Shown here one piece after another: positions 7,181 to 20,764 of a stretch of 21,734 nucleotides of DNA (within the stretch, counting starts at the first letter, position 1; each line of letters begins with the position of its first letter). Below the pieces are notes generated by a model. The model was not told the DNA's origin, searched no databases, and saw only the letters and a list, made by a program, of their open reading frames with translations. The stretch is from a virus, in the IMG/VR virus record IMGVR_UViG_3300043568_000634, positions 1 to 21,734 of that record. One strand, written 5' to 3'. A program made the position numbers and the translations under genes.

Positions 7181-8716
7181 TTATTCCGCTACAAGTTTAT
7201 CCAATTCACCATCTTCACGATCGTCGTTCCAGGAATCTTTATCTTCACTACCTTCTTCATAGAACAGGTCGTTTGAAATATTTGTAACACCACCACGTAG
7301 GCGTGAGCCTTCCAAATTCTGCATAAAGCCTCTGGTTTCTGCATCAGCAATCATAGCAAATGCAGATTCTTTGTCTGGACAATTAAACAGTTCTTCAACA
7401 AAGCGATCAAAATACAAGATATTACGAGGAACCCAATCGCTATACTCATCGCTCATATCACGATCTTTGTTCTTCTTCCACATTCTCCAATCTGGACGAA
7501 TCTTAGCTTGTTCAATATCTGCCAAATTGTTAGCACGTTGTACAGCTACAATGTGTTGATAGACATTATGTCCCATCATTAGTGCATAACCAAAACTGTC
7601 CCAAGATGTTTTGCCTTCTTTGCCGATCTTGTTTAACATTCCCGGCTTGTAATGACAAACGTCTGCTACATTAAGTCTACGGCCGATCTCGCTTTCGAAC
7701 GGAAACGGAATGTCTGGACGTGATGCAAGTGCTTTATTATCCGGAGCCTTGTCCATAATAACACTCCAACGCTTGGCTGTGTGCTGACTATTGGTATAAA
7801 CCAGTCCGTGTGCAGTTGCAATGAATGGCGAAGCACAGTCAAAGCTGATTGTAAAGTTAGGATTAACGTGTTTACGGATCTGACGTTGAATACTAGTTAG
7901 GTAGCATGACCAATCTAACTGTGCAGTACCCAAGAAGTGCATCCAATCCTTGCCTTCTAACATACCGTCAAAGCGCATAGTGATCAATCGACGCAGAGTA
8001 ATATGCATCTTGCACATATTAGCACCACCCATCGCCCAACCCTCAGCGGCTTTATCGCCCCAAACTTTCTTATCACTGAATTCTTTAACGCCTTCGTACC
8101 ACGCTTCCGCAGTATCCCAGTTACTACCCTGTAGAACATTCAAGAACTTGGTAGCACCTAAACGATTTTCTAAGAAGTACTTGTTATTGTGGCGAGTCTT
8201 TTCTAGACAGTCTTCAAACGATTTTAATCCAGTCTTCGGACTGTGAATATGATCACAAGCCCAAGTAGGAACGTCAAGCATCATTGACCAATCAGCAGTT
8301 AGTTCAAGCCAGTTAAGGATATCGTCTCGAGTTTTATTAGCTGCTTTACCTTCGAAGTCTAACCAATCAAACTTAAGAATGCCTTTACCAATCTGGTAAC
8401 CACCAGAGTCTCCTAAGATCATTGTCTTACTACGATCACGTTGTTGAATCATTGAATCGTGATCCATTGTTTTAGTAAGATCTAACTGTGCATGACCTGC
8501 TGAATACAAACCATACTTGTAATAAAAGTAGCCTTGTTCGGGATTTAAAAAATTCATACCTTCAATACCACGATCGAATCCTGCTGGAATACGATCTTTA
8601 GGTACAAACTCTTCCTTACGTTGTTTTGCAATGTAAGTGCTGTAAAAACTACTAATCGCAGGCAAATAGACTGCGTAGTCTTTCTGTAGGGGTGTTAAAT
8701 CAACTGGTTGTTTCAT
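7181..8716 (-). CDS. dpdA: DpdA-type DNA guanine transglycosylase
   Basis: A 511-residue member of the tRNA-guanine transglycosylase superfamily of the phage type that exchanges guanine in DNA for a 7-deazaguanine such as preQ0. The TGT landmarks appear in order. LGDSGGYQ carries the general acid/base Asp (D103), and MLDVPTW lies near 147-152. VLQGSN is near 194-199 and corresponds to the TGT VQGG loop, with AMGG near 228-231. HFLGTAQLDW is near 260-269, and ISFDCASPF carries the predicted nucleophile D293. I see no C-x-C-x2-C zinc motif near the C-terminus, unlike bacterial TGT. The protein is longer than a bacterial TGT (about 370-380), with a C-terminal extension and acidic tail. The stretch IGKG after DSGGYQ and the phage setting point to DpdA rather than a tRNA enzyme. 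Confidence 0.85.
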   Translation of the reverse strand: MKQPVDLTPLQKDYAVYLPAISSFYSTYIAKQRKEEFVPKDRIPAGFDRGIEGMNFLNPEQGYFYYKYGLYSAGHAQLDLTKTMDHDSMIQQRDRSKTMILGDSGGYQIGKGILKFDWLDFEGKAANKTRDDILNWLELTADWSMMLDVPTWACDHIHSPKTGLKSFEDCLEKTRHNNKYFLENRLGATKFLNVLQGSNWDTAEAWYEGVKEFSDKKVWGDKAAEGWAMGGANMCKMHITLRRLITMRFDGMLEGKDWMHFLGTAQLDWSCYLTSIQRQIRKHVNPNFTISFDCASPFIATAHGLVYTNSQHTAKRWSVIMDKAPDNKALASRPDIPFPFESEIGRRLNVADVCHYKPGMLNKIGKEGKTSWDSFGYALMMGHNVYQHIVAVQRANNLADIEQAKIRPDWRMWKKNKDRDMSDEYSDWVPRNILYFDRFVEELFNCPDKESAFAMIADAETRGFMQNLEGSRLRGGVTNISNDLFYEEGSEDKDSWNDDREDGELDKLVAE

Positions 8717-13247: not shown

Positions 13248-14219
13248 TTATCTACGTTGTTCGCTGAGTACATCGTACATTTCAAATGCACCACCCATAC
13301 GCTCATAGACCATGCCAGCATAAACATCAGCTTTCATGCCTTCTCCAATTTTTGTTCTAGCAACACGTTGAGCCCAGGCCCACAGTTGATTGTCAACTGG
13401 ATCAATTTGTTGTTGACCACCACTTTCAACAACCAGTGCCATCATTTCTTTAAATGATAAATTTGTTTCTATACTTTCTTTTACTGCTTGCTTTTTGCCT
13501 TTAGGCATCATTTTACCTTCGGTCTTCTTGGCAATGGCTTTTTGTAGACCGGGAGGAAGTTTTTTCTGCTTGTCTGAAAGACCTTTTTTATCTGCAGTTT
13601 TGTCATCACCACCTTTTTCGCCAGCAGCCTTTTTCATTGGCTCTTTCTTGTCACCGTCTTTATCAAGATCTAAAAAGTCTGGCTTTGCACCTTCGTCCAT
13701 TTTCTTTTTCTTATCAGCTTTCTTTTTGTCAGCCTCTTCTTTCTTGGCTTCTACCATCTTCATGAACTTGCTTTTGAATTCTGGCTCAATGCTTTCTACT
13801 TTCTTGCCATCTTTAACACGAGTTACTGAACCTTTGCCGTGTGCTTTTTCATAGTCCTTGCTGTCTTTGGCATGGGCTTTGGCTGCGGCCTTGTCGTCGG
13901 CCTTGTCTGCTGCACTTTGTGATTTAGCCTTGCTGGCAGGTTCCGAATGCGGTTCATCACTGAAACGATTGGGATTTTGTGTATGTTTGGTTACGCCTTT
14001 CTTCGAACGATCAATAGTTCCGCCGGTGGACGATTTTTCTTCTTTAACTTCTTCGTCTTTCTTCTTCTTGGCTTCTGCAACATAAGTTGTTTGTCCAGCT
14101 AGAACACGAAGTTGTGCATCTTCGTTGAGTTGCACAGCTTTGTCTAACACAGGGGCTGCAGGAGTTGTCGGCGGTGCTTCCATTCCGTCAAGTTTGCTTA
14201 GTATTGCTTTAAAGTCCAT
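13248..14219 (-). CDS. Charged scaffold-like internal head protein, putative
   Basis: A 323-residue protein dominated by Lys, Asp, Glu and Ala between residues 50 and 245, probably helical or disordered. It contains DLDKDGDKKE (184-193), a calcium-binding-like loop, and LSDKQKKLPPGLQKAI near 214-229, a short module I know from other marine phage proteins. The C-terminus is folded-looking and aromatic (QLWAWAQRVA, then YERMGGAFEMYDVL). Sites of the form hydrophobic-x-Glu|Ala/Gly occur at about residues 14, 49, 157, 176 and 293, as in T4 core proteins cut by gp21. The N-terminus MDFKAILSKLDGME is helix-like. I infer a scaffold or internal head protein; it is the last gene before the terminator. 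AAGGA precedes the ATG. Confidence 0.6.
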   Translation of the reverse strand: MDFKAILSKLDGMEAPPTTPAAPVLDKAVQLNEDAQLRVLAGQTTYVAEAKKKKDEEVKEEKSSTGGTIDRSKKGVTKHTQNPNRFSDEPHSEPASKAKSQSAADKADDKAAAKAHAKDSKDYEKAHGKGSVTRVKDGKKVESIEPEFKSKFMKMVEAKKEEADKKKADKKKKMDEGAKPDFLDLDKDGDKKEPMKKAAGEKGGDDKTADKKGLSDKQKKLPPGLQKAIAKKTEGKMMPKGKKQAVKESIETNLSFKEMMALVVESGGQQQIDPVDNQLWAWAQRVARTKIGEGMKADVYAGMVYERMGGAFEMYDVLSEQRR

Positions 14220-14220
14220 T

Positions 14221-14532
14221 TTAGTTTCCTTGATTTTTTCTGTTCAGCCACTGTTCTTTGAGGCTTTGTTTAACTTCGTTTTGTAGAGATTCTTCAAAAT
14301 CTCTAGGTCCCGATTCGACTTGACTAGCTGCCATTTTTTCATATTCCATATAATGATATACAGAGCTGATATAATCAGCAGCTTTGGTAATTTTTGATTG
14401 AACCCAGCCATCTAATTCATCGTTTTCTCCGATCAGTTTAAACAATTTGGCAGAATACTGATTGAGCTTGTAAAGCTCAGCTCTGGCCATTTTGGCTTCG
14501 TGATCGTCGACTGGTTGTTTTTCTAGGTCCAT
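14221..14532 (-). CDS. Conserved marine-phage protein, 103 aa
   Basis: A helical protein with a stretch very typical of T4-like marine phages: DDHEAKMARAELYKLNQYS, then ELDGWVQSKITKAADYISSVYHYM. I know this pattern only as a conserved protein of unknown role found near late genes. The rest is acidic and ends in a basic tail. No ribosome site is evident before the ATG; instead a NATAAATA box stands 5 nt upstream, overlapping the end of the preceding gene. Confidence 0.78.
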   Translation of the reverse strand: MDLEKQPVDDHEAKMARAELYKLNQYSAKLFKLIGENDELDGWVQSKITKAADYISSVYHYMEYEKMAASQVESGPRDFEESLQNEVKQSLKEQWLNRKNQGN

Positions 14533-14537
14533 AAGTA

Positions 14538-14545
14538 TATTTATC
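14538..14545 (-). promoter_or_regulatory. NATAAATA box, possible late promoter
   Basis: GATAAATA on the minus strand, 5 nt before the ATG at 14532 and overlapping the stop codon of 14541-14723. It resembles the T4 late promoter TATAAATA. If it were a promoter for 14221-14532 the transcript would start at or inside the gene, so it may be chance or may serve genes further on. Confidence 0.3.
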
Positions 14546-14723
14546 TTCTTATAATAGATTCACCGGAAGTCTTAGACTTCTTTTTAGTGGTTTTATTCTG
14601 TTTAAAACTGCCGCCAAATAGTGTACCTACATTAGAGCCGGTGCCCCCTTTAATCAAAGTAGCCCCCATACCGGCACTTGTAGCACCTGCTGTAGCTGTT
14701 TCTAAAAGTTCTTTGATTTTCAT
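14541..14723 (-). CDS. Small Gly/Thr-rich phage protein, 60 aa
   Basis: The protein begins MKIKELLETATAGATSAGMG, followed by a glycine-rich stretch and a basic KTTKKKSKTSGES tail ending IIRR. The N-terminus is of the MKxxELL(x)E type shared by several late genes here and resembles a capsid-targeting peptide; the ATSAG segment is familiar from similar small marine phage proteins. I chose the ATG at 14723. The frame also has an ATG at 14747, but that would add eight unmatched residues overlapping the upstream gene. Confidence 0.68.
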   Translation of the reverse strand: MKIKELLETATAGATSAGMGATLIKGGTGSNVGTLFGGSFKQNKTTKKKSKTSGESIIRR

Positions 14724-14727
14724 ACAC

Positions 14728-15786
14728 TTATTTATTTTTTTTAGCACGGCCTGCTTTCATATTAGCTAGCCAGTGTGCTAGTTGTCCTTTGCGTCCGCCC
14801 TGTTTAGCAGTTTTACGTAGACTACTTACACTGGCTTTGGTGTTAATACCGTGCCTCTTACTGTCGCCTTTATCTTGTGGATTGCGTCCGTCGGCAAAGT
14901 TTTCCGATACATCTTGAGCAACTGCCACATAAGCAGGGCCTGTATATCCATCAGGATACTTAACAAAATGTTGTATAGTTCTATGCCATCCTTCTAAAAG
15001 TTCATATCCATTGGCTGTTTTTATTAGTAGCACAGGTTCTTTACGCACACCACCTTGTTGTTGTGCTAATGCCGCTTGAGTAGCGTGTCTTTCTTTGTCT
15101 TTTGGAATACCCATACCTAAATCACTACTTCCACCGGCACGGCCTATTAATAGTTGTTTTGTTTTTGGGTCAAACATATCCATTGTAAACTTCATATTAG
15201 GAACAAGTTGCCATTTGGAACTAGGAGTAAGTCCTACACCTTGTACTTTTTCCATTATGCCGTTTTTAATTGCGTCCGTAGGCAAATTACTAAAGTCACC
15301 TTTGTTTGGAACTAACCAATCTTTAAGAACATACTCCGGCCAAGTAGGAAGTAAACTCTTGACATACTGAAGCAATCTATCTCTATATTCAGTAATCTGC
15401 TCTAATCCTTCCGATACATCTTTCTCCACAGTTTCTTTGTACGGGCGTACCCAGGTAAATCTAGTACTTGCCGGAACCCATTTAAGTCCAAGACCCTTGT
15501 TGCCTTTGGCAGGATCAGTATCGATCAGCAGCCAGTTCTTTTCATCGCTGAATGGTACAGTGTGTTGTTTTTTAAGTATGCGAACAATTTTTCCGTCGTT
15601 CTCAATCTTAGCCATCATGGCATCTTCATTCTCAATGCTTTCACCGCCTCCGCCTTCACCACCGCCGCTATCTCCGCTATATCCAGCATAATAACCATAG
15701 CCGCCGTAAGGTCCGGGACCGTAAGCAGCCCAGCGAGGTTTACGCTTACGTTTCTTTCTTTCAACTATAAATTCTACAGCTCTCAT
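14728..15786 (-). CDS. ParB/sulfiredoxin-like protein with Gly/Tyr-rich head, putative internal head protein
   Basis: A 352-residue multi-part protein. Residues 1-9 (MRAVEFIVE) resemble the T4 capsid-targeting peptide. Residues 10-18 are strongly basic, and 20-50 are a Gly/Tyr/Pro-rich low-complexity stretch. Residues 85-240 are unrecognised and aromatic-rich. Around 249-270, [20 protein letters not shown] matches the ParB/sulfiredoxin pattern of a P-(V/I) strand, a Gly-Tyr-x-Leu strand and a G-x-H-R turn. The end (about 299-345), [16 protein letters not shown] followed by [12 protein letters not shown], is a short module common at the ends of marine phage proteins. A gp21-like site VSE|G lies near 124-127. 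Function is unknown; the ParB-like part may bind or cut nucleic acid or be an enzyme relic. It overlaps the Fe-S gene by ATGA. Confidence 0.65.
14729..14736 (-). promoter_or_regulatory. NATAAATA box, possible late promoter
   Basis: AATAAATA on the minus strand, 5 nt before the ATG at 14723 and overlapping the final codons and stop of 14728-15786. It is the same box and spacing as at 14538-14545. The lysine/asparagine codons at this gene end make chance likely, so confidence is low. Confidence 0.27.
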
Positions 15787-16142
15787 TCGTGAAATTGATA
15801 ATCGTCTTGATAATTGTCTGCTACACTAAAACTTGAGCCGCAACCGCAGGTTGTTTCTGCATTGGGATTTGTTATCACAAACTGACTGCCTGATAGGTCT
15901 TCTTTGTAATCGATGCCAGCACCCTGTAGGTACTGCATGCTCATGGCATCAATCAACACTATGAAGTTGCCTACAGGAATTTCAAAGTCGTCAGCATTTT
16001 GTTCTTCGTCAAGAGTAAATCCGTAGCTCATACCACTACACCCACCACCTTGAACAAACGTACGAAGTTTGAGATTTGGGTTGTTTTCTTCACTAAGAAG
16101 ATCTGTAATTTTAAATTGAGCACTTTCTGTAATTGTAATCAT
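15783..16142 (-). CDS. Iron-sulfur cluster carrier, IscA/ErpA family
   Basis: A 119-residue A-type Fe-S carrier, close to the usual length of 105-120. The three family cysteines are present: C35 in [11 protein letters not shown] and C99 and C101 in TTCGCGSSF. Such proteins receive clusters from a scaffold and pass them to apo-enzymes. The C-terminal extension after CGCG is short and acidic. Phages of several aquatic groups carry this gene, presumably to keep Fe-S enzymes charged during infection. It is embedded between two putative head-protein genes, joined to both neighbours by ATGA overlaps, and CAGGAG precedes its ATG. IscA and ErpA cannot be told apart from this sequence. Confidence 0.93.
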
Positions 16143-16339
16143 AATGGTTTTTCTCCTGTTAGGTACGGTAAACTAAACCATAATTGAAACCATTCTGGCG
16201 TGCCTGGTTTGATATTGTGTTTTTTCATCAGTTCACCTTTTTCATTGCCTGTAATACTTATATTGCTGCCGTCGTAGAGTTGATAGCCTTTGAATTCATT
16301 AATGCCTGCTAATCTTTTGATCTGTTCCAGCTCATCCAT
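16139..16339 (-). CDS. Hypothetical protein, 66 aa
   Basis: A small protein beginning [16 protein letters not shown]. The IKRLAGI element recurs near the N-termini of many marine phage late proteins, as far as I recall. The middle contains [18 protein letters not shown] and a polar-aromatic end ([13 protein letters not shown]). Function is unknown. It follows the stop of the large 16341-18218 gene by one nucleotide and overlaps the Fe-S gene by ATGA. Confidence 0.65.
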
Positions 16340-16340
16340 A

Positions 16341-18218
16341 TTACATTCCGCCGCCTACAAGGTCTCCTGGTCTAGCTGGTTTGTTTTTCTTAGCACCATC
16401 ATTGCGCCACTGACCTGCTGGGCCTTCCTTGTGTCCAACCTTAGCGCCAGCAAACATAGAACCCTCACCAACCTTTTTGTCCATTTGTTTTAATAGTTCT
16501 TGTGCTTTTTCAACACTAATCATATATCTACCAAACCGATTAGGATCGGCTGCCTTTTGTAGATATTCTTTGTTGTAGCCTTTTGGTGCTTCTGCTGCCG
16601 GCTTATTGTCAGATGGTGCAGTTACCGTTGAAGTTGCTGTTGGTTTAAATCCCCCAGTGTAGCCTCCTTGCCCATCGGGAGTAACTCTAGCATTAGCACC
16701 ACCTGCACCGAATGCCATAGCCCCTGCAAGACCTAGACCTGCAAGTTTAGAACCAAATCCTTCTGCTGCACCTTGGCTTTTTTGTGCTTTTTCTGCTGCA
16801 GAAATAGTACGCCATAGGTTATTCATTGGGCCTTCCATACTACGAGCTTCGCGTTCGCGATCTGTTAGATTTTGTTCACGATCAGCATATTGCCAATTGC
16901 TTCCACCTAGTGACTTGTACTCCGCCTTCATGCGTTCATAATCTGCTTTTAATTCTGGCAGCTTGGCAATGTTATCTGCCATCTGCTTGTCAGCAGCAGT
17001 CTTACGTGCAACTTCATCACGAGCCTTTAAACGATTTAGACCTCGTTCTCTTTTATTGAAAGTGGCTAGTGCATCGGGATCGTTAAACATTGCACCCATT
17101 TGACTCTGCGCTTTTTGCTTTAGTGCTTTTTCTCGATAGTCACCTAGACTTGCTTCATCTACACTCTTCTTGACTTTGTTCCATGATAGTTTTCTACCGT
17201 CTGGCAAAATTGCCTGTATCGGGCCATCAATCATTTTGGCCTGTATGAGTTTTGCATCTGGAAATTTAGCTTTAACTAAACGCATCCATTCTTGTTGTGT
17301 GCGACCTTTATCATCAACTGCTCGTCCTACGCTTTCTGCAGTAGGGGCAGCAGCAGGCGCATACTTATTCTTGGCCTTGGCATTTCTAGCATCATCGGCG
17401 GCTAGGATCTGTTCTGCAGATGATCCTGCTGGTAATCCCAGCGTTGGAGCAATAACATCTAGCATGGCCTGATTCTTGCCAATTGTGGGTTGAGCCAACA
17501 TAATAGCTATGGGACTCTTACCAGCTTTGGCTGCTGCCTGTCCGCCTTCTGCATCTGGGTTTGGTGCACCGCCGGGCTGTCCGGGTTTTGGTGCTAGTTT
17601 TACAGGAGCATTGTCGGCTTGTGCGCCACCAGCATCAATATTGGCCATGTTCTTTTTGTATTGTGCGGCAGCTGCTGGGTCATTCTTGTCCAAGTAAGCC
17701 TGTTGTGCGGCCTGTACATCGTCTGCACTAGATCCCGGAGGTAATCCAAAACGCTTGCCCATACGGTCCAATATACGCTGTTCCATATCATCTGTTGCCT
17801 GCACTATTGGTTCTTTGGCTGCAGGAGCAGCCGCAGGTTTTGCTACAGGTTGTGGGTTACCAGCAGCCGCAGGAGGTGCCGCAGTTGCACCTGGTTTAAA
17901 TTGAGGCGGTGGAGGAGTAACTGGTTGAGTCGTAGGAGCAGCCGCAGGTTTTGCTACAGGTTGTGGAGACACTTTTTTACTTAGATCAAGTGTGCCACCT
18001 TTTTTCACTGCGCCTGGTGCAGCTCGAGCAGCGCCCGCTTCCGCTACAACTTTCGCATCGTTGGCAAATTGTTTCTTATGCTTAACATCACCTTGCTTCT
18101 CGGCCTTCTTTTTATCTTTGTGTTGTCCAGCTTTGCCAGCCAGCGAAGCATTTTTAGCCACAAAGTTTCTAGGTGTTGATTGTTTTTTAAGTTCTATAAT
18201 AAATTCTTTAGCTTTCAT
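16341..18218 (-). CDS. Large Ala/Pro-rich modular protein, putative internal head protein
   Basis: A 625-residue protein made of pieces. Residues 1-9 (MKAKEFIIE) resemble the T4 capsid-targeting peptide, followed by a basic region (10-50) and a Pro/Ala linker (84-140) with QPVAKPAAAP twice. Two copies of a small helical module carrying GLPPGSSA (158-165) and GLPAGSSA (261-268) follow, then a compact domain near 300-350. A helical, charged part (356-475) precedes a hydrophobic Gly/Ala stretch (487-510), and the C-terminus is Gly/Lys-rich. Candidate gp21-like sites are VAE|A (58-61), VDE|A (353-356), AAE|G (484-487) and VGE|G (583-586), falling between the pieces. I infer a processed internal or ejected protein. 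No enzyme motif is seen. AAAGGA precedes the ATG. Confidence 0.6.
   Translation of the reverse strand: MKAKEFIIELKKQSTPRNFVAKNASLAGKAGQHKDKKKAEKQGDVKHKKQFANDAKVVAEAGAARAAPGAVKKGGTLDLSKKVSPQPVAKPAAAPTTQPVTPPPPQFKPGATAAPPAAAGNPQPVAKPAAAPAAKEPIVQATDDMEQRILDRMGKRFGLPPGSSADDVQAAQQAYLDKNDPAAAAQYKKNMANIDAGGAQADNAPVKLAPKPGQPGGAPNPDAEGGQAAAKAGKSPIAIMLAQPTIGKNQAMLDVIAPTLGLPAGSSAEQILAADDARNAKAKNKYAPAAAPTAESVGRAVDDKGRTQQEWMRLVKAKFPDAKLIQAKMIDGPIQAILPDGRKLSWNKVKKSVDEASLGDYREKALKQKAQSQMGAMFNDPDALATFNKRERGLNRLKARDEVARKTAADKQMADNIAKLPELKADYERMKAEYKSLGGSNWQYADREQNLTDREREARSMEGPMNNLWRTISAAEKAQKSQGAAEGFGSKLAGLGLAGAMAFGAGGANARVTPDGQGGYTGGFKPTATSTVTAPSDNKPAAEAPKGYNKEYLQKAADPNRFGRYMISVEKAQELLKQMDKKVGEGSMFAGAKVGHKEGPAGQWRNDGAKKNKPARPGDLVGGGM
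17823..17966 (-). repeat. Pair of 33-nt direct repeats in the Ala/Pro linker
   Basis: The 33 nt at 17823-17855 recur at 17934-17966, 111 nt (37 codons) apart. Both copies code for the same QPVAKPAAAP peptide in the linker of the 16341-18218 protein. The identity at DNA level, not just at protein level, points to a recent in-frame duplication or to recombination between copies. Confidence 0.85.
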
Positions 18219-18228
18219 ACTTGATCCT

Positions 18229-19689
18229 TTAGTCTAACCCAAATCCATCACGAATCTCGTTCATTAGTTCGCTTATGCTGGCTTCTGTATTAGGTAGTCG
18301 TCCTTTAAACGCATCGTCGATATGCGGATCACCTTCTTCTACTGTACCTAATGCATATGTAAAGAAACCTTCCCCAGCATTATCTATGATAGCAATGTAC
18401 CACTGATCCTCAACTTCTGCACCTCTAGTGGTAAACATAAATGCATCATCGTTCATACGTTTGCTTTTCCATCCGGTGGCCTTCATTGCGCTGTTAACTT
18501 TGTTAACAACTTCCGGCCACGGCAATACATTGCCTAAAGATGCTTCAGCTACACCTTTTGTCTTAGCAATGCTGGTAATTTGAGTTAGGTCTTCAATTTG
18601 ATTTATATTATCGGGTGGTCCCATACCTTGCCACACATCTGTTGTGTATCCTGGCAATCCTGTAGACTGTAAACTACGGTTTATGTTGTTGAAAAATTTA
18701 TTAATTTCATTAACAGTTCTAACAATGTTTGCTGCAAGACGACTCTGATTGTTTGATGTATATTCTCTGCTGGTGTCAAAGAACATTTCTGTATAGCCTT
18801 GACCTTGCCCAGGATCAATAGAGTCCCATCCATATTTTTCACCAATGGACATTAGTTCTTGTTCAATTTGATCAGGGGTAAACTCTATTTTACCACCAAG
18901 AAATTCTTCAGGATCGTCAATAACGTCTGGCATTGGCTTGCCATTATGTTTAACGCCTTTAATTTTCTTTGATCTCCCCTCACTGGCAAAACTCAATGCT
19001 ACATATCCTGACATTGGTGTAGGAGTAGATTTCTGTATTTTACCCATCATCCTTTGAAAACGTGAGTCATCTGTTGGACCTTCTGTCACACCTTGTTCAA
19101 GCCACGGCTCAAGTCCTTGACGAACAGCAGAAAATACTTCTTTGGCGTCGCCTTGTAGTCCTGCCGGCAATCCTGTTTTGAATGATTCAAAGTCATTAGC
19201 AATGGCAGCAGCTCGCATTTTGCTTGCGCTCATGCCTTCTGCACCTTCTGCATCAGGATCTCTAGCACCGCTTGATACAATCTTAATCGATTTGAGATCG
19301 TAATCAATTCCGTTTTGTTTATTAAACAATTCTGTAAATGCCGGCACACGATCTGAGCCGCATACAAAGACAACATTCTCAAAGCCTTGTTTTTCTAAAC
19401 TTTGAAGAATCCCAATAGCAGTACCTACTGAAGTATCTCCAATATCAATATTGGGAAATGCCTGTTGGATAAATCCCAACTTAACATCAAATGGTAATGG
19501 ATTTTCCAATCTTGTTTTGTTCTTGCCGGTTGGTTTATGAGTTTGGGACACAAACAAGAAATGAGCATCGGCTTTTTGTTTCAAAATAGCATCAACTACC
19601 TTTTGATGGCCAATTGTGGGAGGATTCATTCTACCGAATGCAACGGCAGCAGTCTTACCCGATTGCTCAAATAGTTCTAACAGTCTCAT
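18229..19689 (-). CDS. Nucleotidyltransferase fused to unknown domains, possibly packaged in the head
   Basis: A 486-residue fusion. Residues 10-165 are a cytidylyltransferase-like nucleotidyltransferase: AFGRMNPPTIGH (17-28) contains the T-x-G-H nucleotide motif, and MSASKMR (153-159) matches the I-S-x-T/S-x-x-R loop that holds the phosphates. NMN and pantetheine-phosphate adenylyltransferases share this fold, so the substrate is open. Residues 205-375 and 384-486 are two unrecognised domains. The joints carry VTE|G (201-204) and VAE|A (380-383), both of the T4 gp21 type, and the N-terminus MRLLELFEQ resembles the other late N-termini. I infer that the protein may enter the prohead and be cut into three parts. 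The ATG overlaps the preceding stop by ATGA. Confidence 0.72.
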   Translation of the reverse strand: MRLLELFEQSGKTAAVAFGRMNPPTIGHQKVVDAILKQKADAHFLFVSQTHKPTGKNKTRLENPLPFDVKLGFIQQAFPNIDIGDTSVGTAIGILQSLEKQGFENVVFVCGSDRVPAFTELFNKQNGIDYDLKSIKIVSSGARDPDAEGAEGMSASKMRAAAIANDFESFKTGLPAGLQGDAKEVFSAVRQGLEPWLEQGVTEGPTDDSRFQRMMGKIQKSTPTPMSGYVALSFASEGRSKKIKGVKHNGKPMPDVIDDPEEFLGGKIEFTPDQIEQELMSIGEKYGWDSIDPGQGQGYTEMFFDTSREYTSNNQSRLAANIVRTVNEINKFFNNINRSLQSTGLPGYTTDVWQGMGPPDNINQIEDLTQITSIAKTKGVAEASLGNVLPWPEVVNKVNSAMKATGWKSKRMNDDAFMFTTRGAEVEDQWYIAIIDNAGEGFFTYALGTVEEGDPHIDDAFKGRLPNTEASISELMNEIRDGFGLD

Positions 19690-20024
19690 TGGTCGTAGTC
19701 GCCTCTTTCCATATGCTTTTCTTGTTCAGTGGCTATCATCTTGGCTAACTCTATCAGTTTTTCTTTGGGGAATTTGTCTTCAGAGCTTTCAATTTCAAAC
19801 TTTTCACAGTATGCTTCTTTACAAGATTCTAAAGGCCGCATATAAATTTTATACGCATCTGGATGGCCTCTATACTCTTTATGACGATCTACAGCCGGAA
19901 AGAAATAATTTTTTAACACAGCATCGTCATTATCGATAAAGAATTTCAAGTCGTTGGTCCAGTCTACATCATCTTGTTCTGAAGTAGGTGCCCCTATTGC
20001 ACTAAACATTTCTCTTAATAACAT
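19686..20024 (-). CDS. Conserved marine-phage protein, 112 aa
   Basis: A 112-residue acidic protein: MLLREMFSAIG at the start, then LKFFIDNDDAVL, HPDAYKIYMRPLESC near the middle, and FPKEKLIELAKMIATEQEKH near the end. This pattern is one I know from T4-like marine phages as a conserved protein of unknown role. The start is the ATG at 20024, not the longer frame to 20081, because it forms a TAATG overlap with the preceding stop and has AGGAG at good spacing. The next gene overlaps by ATGA. Confidence 0.75.
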   Translation of the reverse strand: MLLREMFSAIGAPTSEQDDVDWTNDLKFFIDNDDAVLKNYFFPAVDRHKEYRGHPDAYKIYMRPLESCKEAYCEKFEIESSEDKFPKEKLIELAKMIATEQEKHMERGDYDQ

Positions 20025-20764
20025 TACCAGCTCCTGCAACTCCAGTAACGGGCTTTGTGGCGCGGTCCTGGATTGGCACAATTGTGTCTAGCACGGAAAC
20101 TTTTTCTACGTGCCGGATTTGATTTCTTAATACGCATTTTTTTATCGCCGAAGTTTACTTTGACCACATTGCCCTGCGGATTCTTAACATATACTTTAGA
20201 TTTCTTTACATCACCAGCCATCTTCTTGCCCAACTGAACTTCTCGGCCTTGATACTTGGCTTCATCTACATCGGCATCTTCTTTATAGGCCTTGCTGTAT
20301 TTGTCTTTGAGTGCGCCAAGTTCTTTTTGGCTAGCACCATCACGAGCTGCTTGTGCGGCTTTGGTCATGTATTCTTTACCGTGTTTCTTAACTCCGGTAT
20401 AGTATTGAAGACCACTTTCTTCTACTTCGTCTTCTTTGATCTTTTCGCAGTTGTTAACACGCTTGCCGGCATTCTTACCTGTGCCAGCTTGTGTGCCAGT
20501 TTTTCTATAACCTTTCCAGCAGCTCTTAGGTCCAGCAACACCTTCTACAAGTTCACCTTCAAAAAATCGTACGCCTTCGTTGGTTAACATTTCTAAGGCA
20601 GTATCATCTAGTTCAACGACAATACCGTCTTCTAAAACTTCTACTACGTGGGTAGAAATCTCAAAATCAGGACTAAAACTGATACCGAACTCATCTCCAA
20701 TTTCCGGTGTATTAGATTCTTCTAAATTTTCTAATATAGTTAATTTGTCTAAAAGGTCTCTCAT
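20024..20764 (-). CDS. Multi-part late protein with conserved Cys-rich modules
   Basis: A 246-residue protein. Residues 1-75 form an acidic beta-rich part that starts with MRDLLDKLTILENLEES. A first Cys module, SCWKGYRKTGTQAG (81-94), ends with NNCEKI (104-109). A helical, charged middle is followed by a second basic module near 190-246 containing NPARRKSFRARHNC (216-229) and ARYWSC (238-243). Both modules recur in marine phage late proteins as far as I know. Candidate gp21-like sites are LVE|G (72-75) and VDE|A (166-169). The four Cys may bind zinc or form disulfides. Function is unknown. A possible late-type box lies 22 nt upstream. Confidence 0.68.
   Translation of the reverse strand: MRDLLDKLTILENLEESNTPEIGDEFGISFSPDFEISTHVVEVLEDGIVVELDDTALEMLTNEGVRFFEGELVEGVAGPKSCWKGYRKTGTQAGTGKNAGKRVNNCEKIKEDEVEESGLQYYTGVKKHGKEYMTKAAQAARDGASQKELGALKDKYSKAYKEDADVDEAKYQGREVQLGKKMAGDVKKSKVYVKNPQGNVVKVNFGDKKMRIKKSNPARRKSFRARHNCANPGPRHKARYWSCRSW

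Follow-up and report, generated by a model that had tools for sequence, protein, structure and literature searches.

The window considered here is the whole of a 21,734-base virus record (IMG/VR record IMGVR_UViG_3300043568_000634), a fragment of an uncultured T4-like phage with nearly all of its likely genes on the minus strand. Next to its DNA polymerase gene lies a cluster encoding six named proteins (Table 1; each is referred to below by its lower coordinate), several of which begin with almost the same short peptide and carry hydrophobic-x-Glu motifs further in. These are probably head-packaged cargo proteins processed by the prohead protease, constituting a modular variant of the system known from the internal proteins of T4 (probability about three in four). 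A packaged and processed set had been proposed in a first-pass annotation of the sequence; the proposal is now supported by the likeness of the shared start to T4 propeptides, its confinement to start codons, the position of many of the internal sites at module boundaries, an alignment of T4 gp61.1 with gp23 over a proven cut, the presence of gp21 in most long relatives, and virion lists for homologues.

In the proposed scheme, a start of eight or nine residues, M[KR]AxEF[IL]xE, a shortened T4 capsid-targeting sequence, would dock each precursor in the prohead core, and a gp21-type prohead protease would cut behind the Glu of hydrophobic-x-Glu (the cut is written below as a slash), so that the mature protein is released from its tag. 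Long proteins may also be cut by the protease at hydrophobic-x-Glu linkers between modules; a single tag would then suffice to load a polyprotein made up of several small proteins into the head, and the modules would accompany the DNA and be active in the host immediately. In the window these would be NMN-adenylyltransferase-like and ParB-like modules together with small basic and membrane-like pieces, the latter judged by eye, and in relatives ADP-ribosyltransferase, GNAT, kinase, and zeta-toxin-like domains. Docking, cleavage, co-packaging, and injection are what we infer for the window phage.

A start sequence shared by unrelated proteins

The strict tag (M[KR]..E[FL][ILVMF].E at the start of a protein) is present in two window proteins where 0.0006 are expected, and none of 5000 shuffles reaches two. 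MKIKELLE and MRLLELFE are shorter forms of it. The near-identical starts first noticed in several window proteins thus comprise two strict tags, borne out by shuffling, and two short forms; all peptides quoted in the first-pass annotation are present in the genes named there, the start MKIKELLET being at an inner ATG at 14723.

The motif M[KR]AxEFIxE sits almost only at start codons. Among distinct sequences from DNA that was not fetched by the tag, with homologues counted separately, the motif begins with Met in 26 cases and lacks it in 3 in loci retrieved with only the 18229 gene (L001-L042; 0.07 with Met expected), while the counts are 9 and 12 in stretches of long relatives (L118-L175; 0.24 with Met expected). 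The form M[KR]..E[FL]..E opens 71 of 1466 distinct called proteins in 114 records (the window and L001-L113, a set partly fetched with a tagged query). A scan of viral-contig DNA for MRAxEFIxE found at least 120 stretches with at least 146 instances, and a Shine-Dalgarno-like stretch is present at 61 of the 146 listed; a control pattern with GAA replacing ATG found 30 stretches across the whole collection.

Reading the fetched DNA in all six frames yielded 357 tag places. The mature sequences behind them comprise 271 distinct ones, which cluster into 77 families; 49 families have a single member, and some of the 77 may be chance frames. The spread of the tag over unrelated proteins is thus established at the level of sequence. 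With one tag taken per family, position 2 is Arg in 64 and Lys in 13, position 3 is Ala in 61, position 6 is Phe in 65 and Leu in 12, and position 7 is Ile in 59 and Leu in 16, with mixed residues at positions 4, 8, and 10-12; the Met, Lys/Arg, Glu5, Phe/Leu, hydrophobic residue at 7, and Glu9 were demanded by the search pattern, and Ala3, Phe6, and Ile7 by the DNA scan. One relative (L266) has at least four MRAxEFIxE genes inside about 4 kb.

The starts in T4 are MKTYQEFIAE for the internal proteins IPII and IPIII, MKTFKEFTSTTTPVSTITE for IPI, MAKINELLRE for gp24, and MELITELFDE for Alt. The comparison with T4 internal proteins and Alt that had been suggested for these starts bears out the likeness, the tag resembling the propeptides of IPII, IPIII, gp24, and Alt. 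A loose form of the tag matches 7 of 1578 ATG frames of at least 40 amino acids in T4, namely gp24, IPII, IPIII, Alt (two starts), an internal ATG of gp22, and gp61.1; IPI is missed by the pattern in the same set of frames. T4 propeptides of the capsid-targeting type are reported to be trimmed by gp21, with the cut site of Alt given as ITE-6, and in IPIII residues 4 and 7 are reported to matter for targeting and residues 8 and 10 for processing. When aligned on the Glu, the window-type tag retains counterparts of IPIII residues 7, 8, and 10, while Ala replaces Tyr4. The residues for cleavage (hydrophobic at IPIII 8, Glu at 10) are matched by the Ile or Leu at position 7 (59 and 16 families) and by Glu9, both demanded by the pattern; as for the targeting residues, the counterpart of T4 residue 7 is Phe in 65 of 77 families (Phe or Leu being demanded), and that of residue 4 is Ala in 61 of 77, where IPIII has Tyr.

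Both systems place E-[FL]-[IL]-x-E after a Met and a basic residue at the N-terminus of unrelated proteins, and they have in common Glu just before the cut (P1) and a hydrophobic residue at P3, ADP-ribosyltransferases among the cargo, and, here, a gp21 family in most long relatives. They differ in length (10 residues in T4, 9 here), in the Tyr at 4 of IPIII compared to Ala at position 3, and in the many more cargo families and several internal sites per protein of the window-type system. The idea that the capsid-targeting sequence lets T4-like phages load varied proteins is already in print (PMC9026906, PMC3012670).

In a census of 55 records picked mainly by length, the records bearing a tag or module have a gp21 profile match in 15 of the 18 that reach 150 kb and in 4 of the 32 shorter ones; the profile matches none of five GAA controls, only one of which is that long. 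A gp21 homologue, which the first-pass annotation proposed to look for outside the window, is found in most long relatives; the window fragment itself has no match to the profile. gp21 and gp23 co-occur, being found in the same seven records in one comparison.

Links to gp23 and to virion proteins

T4 gp23 is reported to lose a propeptide of 65 residues, and the sequence FLTE ends at residue 65. T4 gp61.1, annotated as a hypothetical protein, aligns with gp23 residues 57-93 (E=6e-9), its Glu10 falling on Glu65, which equates the end of this one tag with a proven gp21 site. At E 1e-3, 61.1 has matches in 1343 of the 50,697 phage records searched; the 61.1 arm follows a longer open frame in four of six records examined (Vibrio, Aeromonas, Acinetobacter, and Citrobacter), and for three of five records a gp23 search leads back to the 61.1 locus, the matching part being gp23 residues 61-117 or 62-100. 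The T4 protein (L409:18966-19130) consists of a capsid-targeting-like tag and a copy of the mature gp23 arm; its relatives are in Straboviridae, where two carry the annotation "major capsid protein," and gp61.1 is already mentioned in open-licence literature.

In gp23 of the relatives (G002, G006, and G017), KYLAE, KYLSE, or RHLAE is followed by SATAGATSAGN, which lies behind the last hydrophobic-x-Glu of the N-terminal region, and this site is predicted to be the maturation cut. The 60-residue window protein (MKIKELLE/TATAGATSAGM) matches gp23 of a relative with the two Glu aligned (BLASTP E=3e-5), and E/xATAGATSAGN is found in three settings: in gp23 of relatives, following a tag, and following an internal site (YVLE/, IKE/, IAE/, and VGE/). 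A broader proposal, with odds only slightly better than even, is that T4-like phages have a general grammar in which interchangeable effector modules follow a single tag, each starting at its own prohead-protease site, and are packed as polyproteins that are cut into separate effectors within the head, and that a conserved member, gp61.1 with its counterpart in the uncultured relatives, is a tagged mimic of the mature gp23 arm with a part in head maturation. T4 gene 61.1, until now only hypothetical in its annotation, would gain a concrete and testable role.

Virions of the cyanophage S-CREM2 have been reported to contain 52 proteins (PMC10665884). Four of its 219 annotated proteins have a T4-type tag and all four are among the 52 (Fisher p 0.003, for a pattern written after the N-termini of this phage had been seen); these are an S-adenosylmethionine (SAM) hydrolase, a 78-amino acid protein, an APH-like kinase, and a cytidylyltransferase, three being annotated enzymes. 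The same pattern, unchanged, has two matches among 4498 start positions of S-SCSM1: the NMN adenylyltransferase (NMNAT; MKSFLQFLKE/A) and open reading frame (ORF) 30 (L420:44215-44535; MKTFKQFMSE/S). NMNAT-like proteins have been reported in virions of S-CBWM1, S-SZBM1, and S-SCSM1. The 18229 protein is homologous to both the S-SCSM1 NMNAT (E 4e-40) and the S-CREM2 cytidylyltransferase (E 2e-23). Around the S-SCSM1 NMNAT, several neighbouring genes carry the label virion protein, among them one with the KPDFLDLDKDG module of 13248; the longer sequence KPDFLDLDKDG..EPMKKA of 13248 recurs in S-SCSM1 ORF92, annotated "virion protein." The cluster thus resembles the virion enzymes of these phages (NMNAT/cytidylyltransferase, kinase, and SAM hydrolase) in its homologous adenylyltransferase, the KPDFLDLDKDG module, the tag at the start, and the neighbouring virion genes, while the cyanophage tag is of the 10-residue T4 type and goes unmentioned in the available parts of the publications. 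ORF30 of S-SCSM1 lies between two virion genes, near the terminase gene. S-CREM2 gp12 (L415:7704-10313), a Cas9-like nuclease on the virion list, has the tag-like stretch RFASFMAE/A near its start, behind a longer N-terminus.

Sites at module boundaries and competing explanations

An excess of [LIVM]xE[AG] sites over shuffled sequences, proposed as a check in the first-pass annotation, is seen for the five site-bearing proteins jointly (14 sites, 4.9 expected), but individually only 13248 falls below 0.05 (p 0.012; 0.12-0.19 for the other four), and all other window genes pooled have 15 sites where 10.3 are expected. Site counting alone is weak evidence and was superseded as the main test by module recurrence, which is stronger: a block downstream of [LIVMF]xE is sought behind unrelated upstream sequence, and the motif is scored as kept or not (sites less than 35 residues from the protein end were left out).

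Of 151 such contexts of the named proteins, 96 keep the motif, against 11 of 39 for eight control proteins, in which such contexts are rarer. Behind arbitrary [LIVMF]xK and [LIVMF]xD places of the named proteins the motif stands in 1 of 65 and 1 of 65. The sites kept are VSE/NFADG (36/46) and VSE/G (1/1) in 14728, VTE/G (5/5) and VAE/A (4/4) in 18229, VDE/A at E355 (3/3) in 16341, MDE/G (10/17) in 13248, and VDE/A at E168 (17/22) and LVE/G at E74 (3/5) in 20024. Many of the sites originally listed as segment borders are therefore upheld, including both of those with nearly the same continuation (E/ASLGD in 16341 and E/ASLGN in 18229), but VGE/G and two VAE/A sites are not.

Before the NFADG module, all 42 nonredundant contexts have Glu at P1 and 34 of them have the complete [LIVMF]xE, compared to 1.3 expected when the upstream sequence is shuffled, although one of the 42 "internal" contexts (MRANEFVIDE) is a variant of the tag itself and one search peptide (QDVSENFA) favours Glu before NFADG. 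Another module has P1 Glu in 15 of 15 contexts and the full motif in 13, and five further modules together have 19 of 19; the KQRLDP module has 0 of 9 at the exact register, with a site one or two residues upstream by eye in 7 of 9. The middle and last modules of 18229 (behind GVTE and GVAE) follow [VM]xE in all eight and all seven contexts listed, the window's included, some of the upstream stretches being related to one another. In relatives one module can follow either the tag or an internal site: the GVAGP module, as in 20024, is directly on the tag in MKVNEFIIE/GVAGP and MRIHEFIIE/GVAGP, and in L193, a homologue of 14728, the tag is placed directly on the YRxRLLQY..ParB_N part.

The alternative that the start is a true capsid-targeting propeptide while the internal motifs are mere flexible linkers, the proteins staying whole, is unlikely. 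The predicted local distance difference test score (pLDDT) of the 18229 model is below 50 at residues 1-8, 199-223, and 379-389, and also at 235-269 and 293-309; such low-confidence stretches cover the tag, both 18229 junctions, and, in the model of 14728, the NFADG junction, plus some other stretches, as would be seen for any linker. Packaged multidomain proteins that stay whole exist, as reported for the N4 virion RNA polymerase. Against mere linkers stand the invariant P1 Glu of two modules (42/42 and 15/15) amid more variable neighbouring positions, the same module behind either tag or internal site, and E/xATAGA in gp23, after tags, and internally. Much less probable is a common start that aids translation or spreads by short-homology recombination and has no role in head assembly. 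Small tagged genes are often in tandem, as expected from recombination, and the codons AGA, GAA, and TTT predominate in the tag; however, tag codons vary while the residues stay, and the P1 and P3 codons at junctions vary too, which points to selection on the protein. The motif also ends at Glu, like known gp21 substrates, and homologues are on virion lists. Although several of the proteins are Lys-rich or of low complexity (13248 and parts of 16341), it is hardly credible that, like T4 gp67/gp68, they form part of the scaffold or core and are broken down inside the head instead of being effectors, as the tagged families include enzyme domains known from conflicts, and 14728 and 16341 have no tblastn match (E 1e-5) in 50,697 deposited phage records, which fits accessory proteins rather than core ones. 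The same records gave no match for 14541 (E 1) or for one member of the largest tagged family.

Packaging and processing of the cluster as cargo has to be weighed against a number of contrary results. The 21.7 kb window has no gp21 profile match. The three long records of the census that lack gp21 (L391, L394, and L401; 191-262 kb) were fetched by the NFADG module and match neither the Peptidase_S77/gp21 nor the Gp23 profile; these perhaps have other heads. Strict tags number 0, 1, 1, 2, 2, and 2 in six long relatives, few as in T4, although the simple gene caller misses some starts (that of 14728, for example). Two of the six named proteins, 13248 and 20024, are without a tag, and the annotated relative Melnitz EXVC044M has no window-type tag, with one loose match (MSDELIRE) in 1539 frames. 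None of the 219 S-CREM2 proteins has the window-type tag, the T4-type pattern was fitted to that phage after the fact, ORF30 of S-SCSM1 is off the virion list, and the cyanophage authors allow for co-purification. A multiple alignment puts the gp23 site of the relatives on T4 Glu53, in a gapped stretch, and not on Glu65, which weakens the gp23 bridge for the relatives. In the boundary test, the eight control proteins too keep the motif in 11 of 39 contexts, and four sites fail: VGE/G at residue 585 (0/7) and VAE/A (0/1) in 16341, and VAE/A (0/3) and MVE/A (0/12) in 13248.

Cargo, comparable systems, and other features of the window

Pfam searches of 79 tagged representatives (E 0.01, some matches lying below Pfam's own cut-off) found GNAT (5), GH19 (4), and Kinase-PolyVal (2), as well as zeta toxin, ADP-ribosyltransferases, ParB_N, and a nucleotidase. 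Four tagged proteins that look ADP-ribosyltransferase- or kinase-like by eye (L156, L263:7239-7946, L270:7733-8068, and L228) have no Pfam family. In T4, Alt is reported to be a packaged ADP-ribosyltransferase that is ejected, and IPIII to be needed on E. coli strain ECOR17. If packaging and cutting are true, a changeable toolkit could be delivered into the host alongside the DNA, and internal cutting in particular would make this a phage polyprotein system in which a structural protease makes effectors. For phages whose genomes come solely from metagenomes, the tag and boundary motif provide a sequence rule for spotting head-packed proteins, and they single out dozens of proteins, many otherwise unannotated, as candidates for an early anti-host or anti-defence action.

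Polyvalent proteins (Iyer et al. 2017, PMC5512222) are similarly multidomain, injected or packaged, and furnished with ADP-ribosyltransferase, kinase, and ParB-like domains, but their processing is ascribed to built-in zincin-like metallopeptidases, which may not be universal among them, while here it is ascribed to the prohead protease at linkers. PolyVal models have three member matches among the 79 representatives and none in ten window proteins scanned, and no peptidase family was found in those ten or, for the representatives, among the 25 Pfam families listed out of 26. Head propeptides of the giant phage SPN3US (PMC5694885, PMC10052503) are also reported to be cut behind Glu by a prohead protease, several times per protein; the motif there is A-x-E and the extra cuts are inside removed propeptides, not between recurring modules. 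Several cuts within one propeptide are thus already known in giant phages. P1 DarB (PMC9024508) likewise carries at its N-terminus a signal that is enough to direct a reporter into the head, but it was the first 30 residues that were tested as sufficient, and the available part of that paper describes no cargo family with a common start. No paper on the tag family or on cargo cutting between modules was found among the listed results of searches in open-licence literature, which is not proof of absence.

Table 1. Cluster proteins and their parts; the slash marks a predicted cut.
Feature	Coordinates	Strand	Sequence features
323-residue Lys-rich protein	13248..14219	-	untagged start; MDE/GAKPDFLDLDKDG boundary at residue 176
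60-residue protein, tag and gp23-like peptide	14541..14723	-	MKIKELLE/TATAGATSAG...; short tag at 14700-14723
Tagged ParB_N-like protein	14728..15786	-	MRAVEFIVE (15760-15786), Gly/Tyr-rich stretch, ParB_N-like domain, C-terminal NFADG module
NFADG module	14731..14901	-	stands behind DVSE/
625-residue tagged protein	16341..18218	-	MKAKEFIIE (18192-18218), DUF7230-like segment, Pro/Ala-rich middle, SVDE/ASLGDYR module from 17153 downwards
486-residue nucleotidyltransferase protein	18229..19689	-	tag-like MRLLELFE (19666-19689), adenylyl/cytidylyltransferase domain, a middle and a C-terminal module
Modules of 18229-19689		-	GVTE/GPTDD middle module from 19080 downwards; GVAE/ASLGN C-terminal module from 18543 downwards
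246-residue protein	20024..20764	-	untagged start; GELVE/GVAGPKSCWKG (E74), ADVDE/AKYQG (E168)

The 18229 protein matches the PHROG cytidyltransferase family (E=1.6e-49), and its N-terminal domain has a NadD/CoaD-type nucleotidyltransferase fold; a search of PDB by sequence gave no match. The ParB_N match in L193, at 26.1 bits, is just under the Pfam cut-off of 26.3, and the model of 14728 itself (mean pLDDT 58.9) has ParB as its best Foldseek hit, which is weak and not significant (E 0.015).

The description of these genes as late is based on their position and on cyanophage synteny; TAAATA late promoters are not enriched (19 found, 24.5 expected). Another candidate promoter, NATAAATA, has five copies on the gene strand, four of them between 14.5 and 21.2 kb, and was set aside as too few to use.

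An untagged iron-sulphur cluster biosynthesis protein (15783-16142; Pfam E=3.4e-18) is encoded within the cargo cluster. Elsewhere in the window, a GTP cyclohydrolase I-like protein (2038-2781) and a tRNA-guanine transglycosylase-like protein (7181-8716, with DSGGYQ), both recognised by eye only, make a pair as in 7-deazaguanine DNA modification. The N-terminus of a small window protein (16139-16339) and the C-terminus of the gp22-like scaffold of relatives (L135:4363-5460; ...DIRRLAGLKV) have a common RLAG[IL] motif, which may be another head signal.

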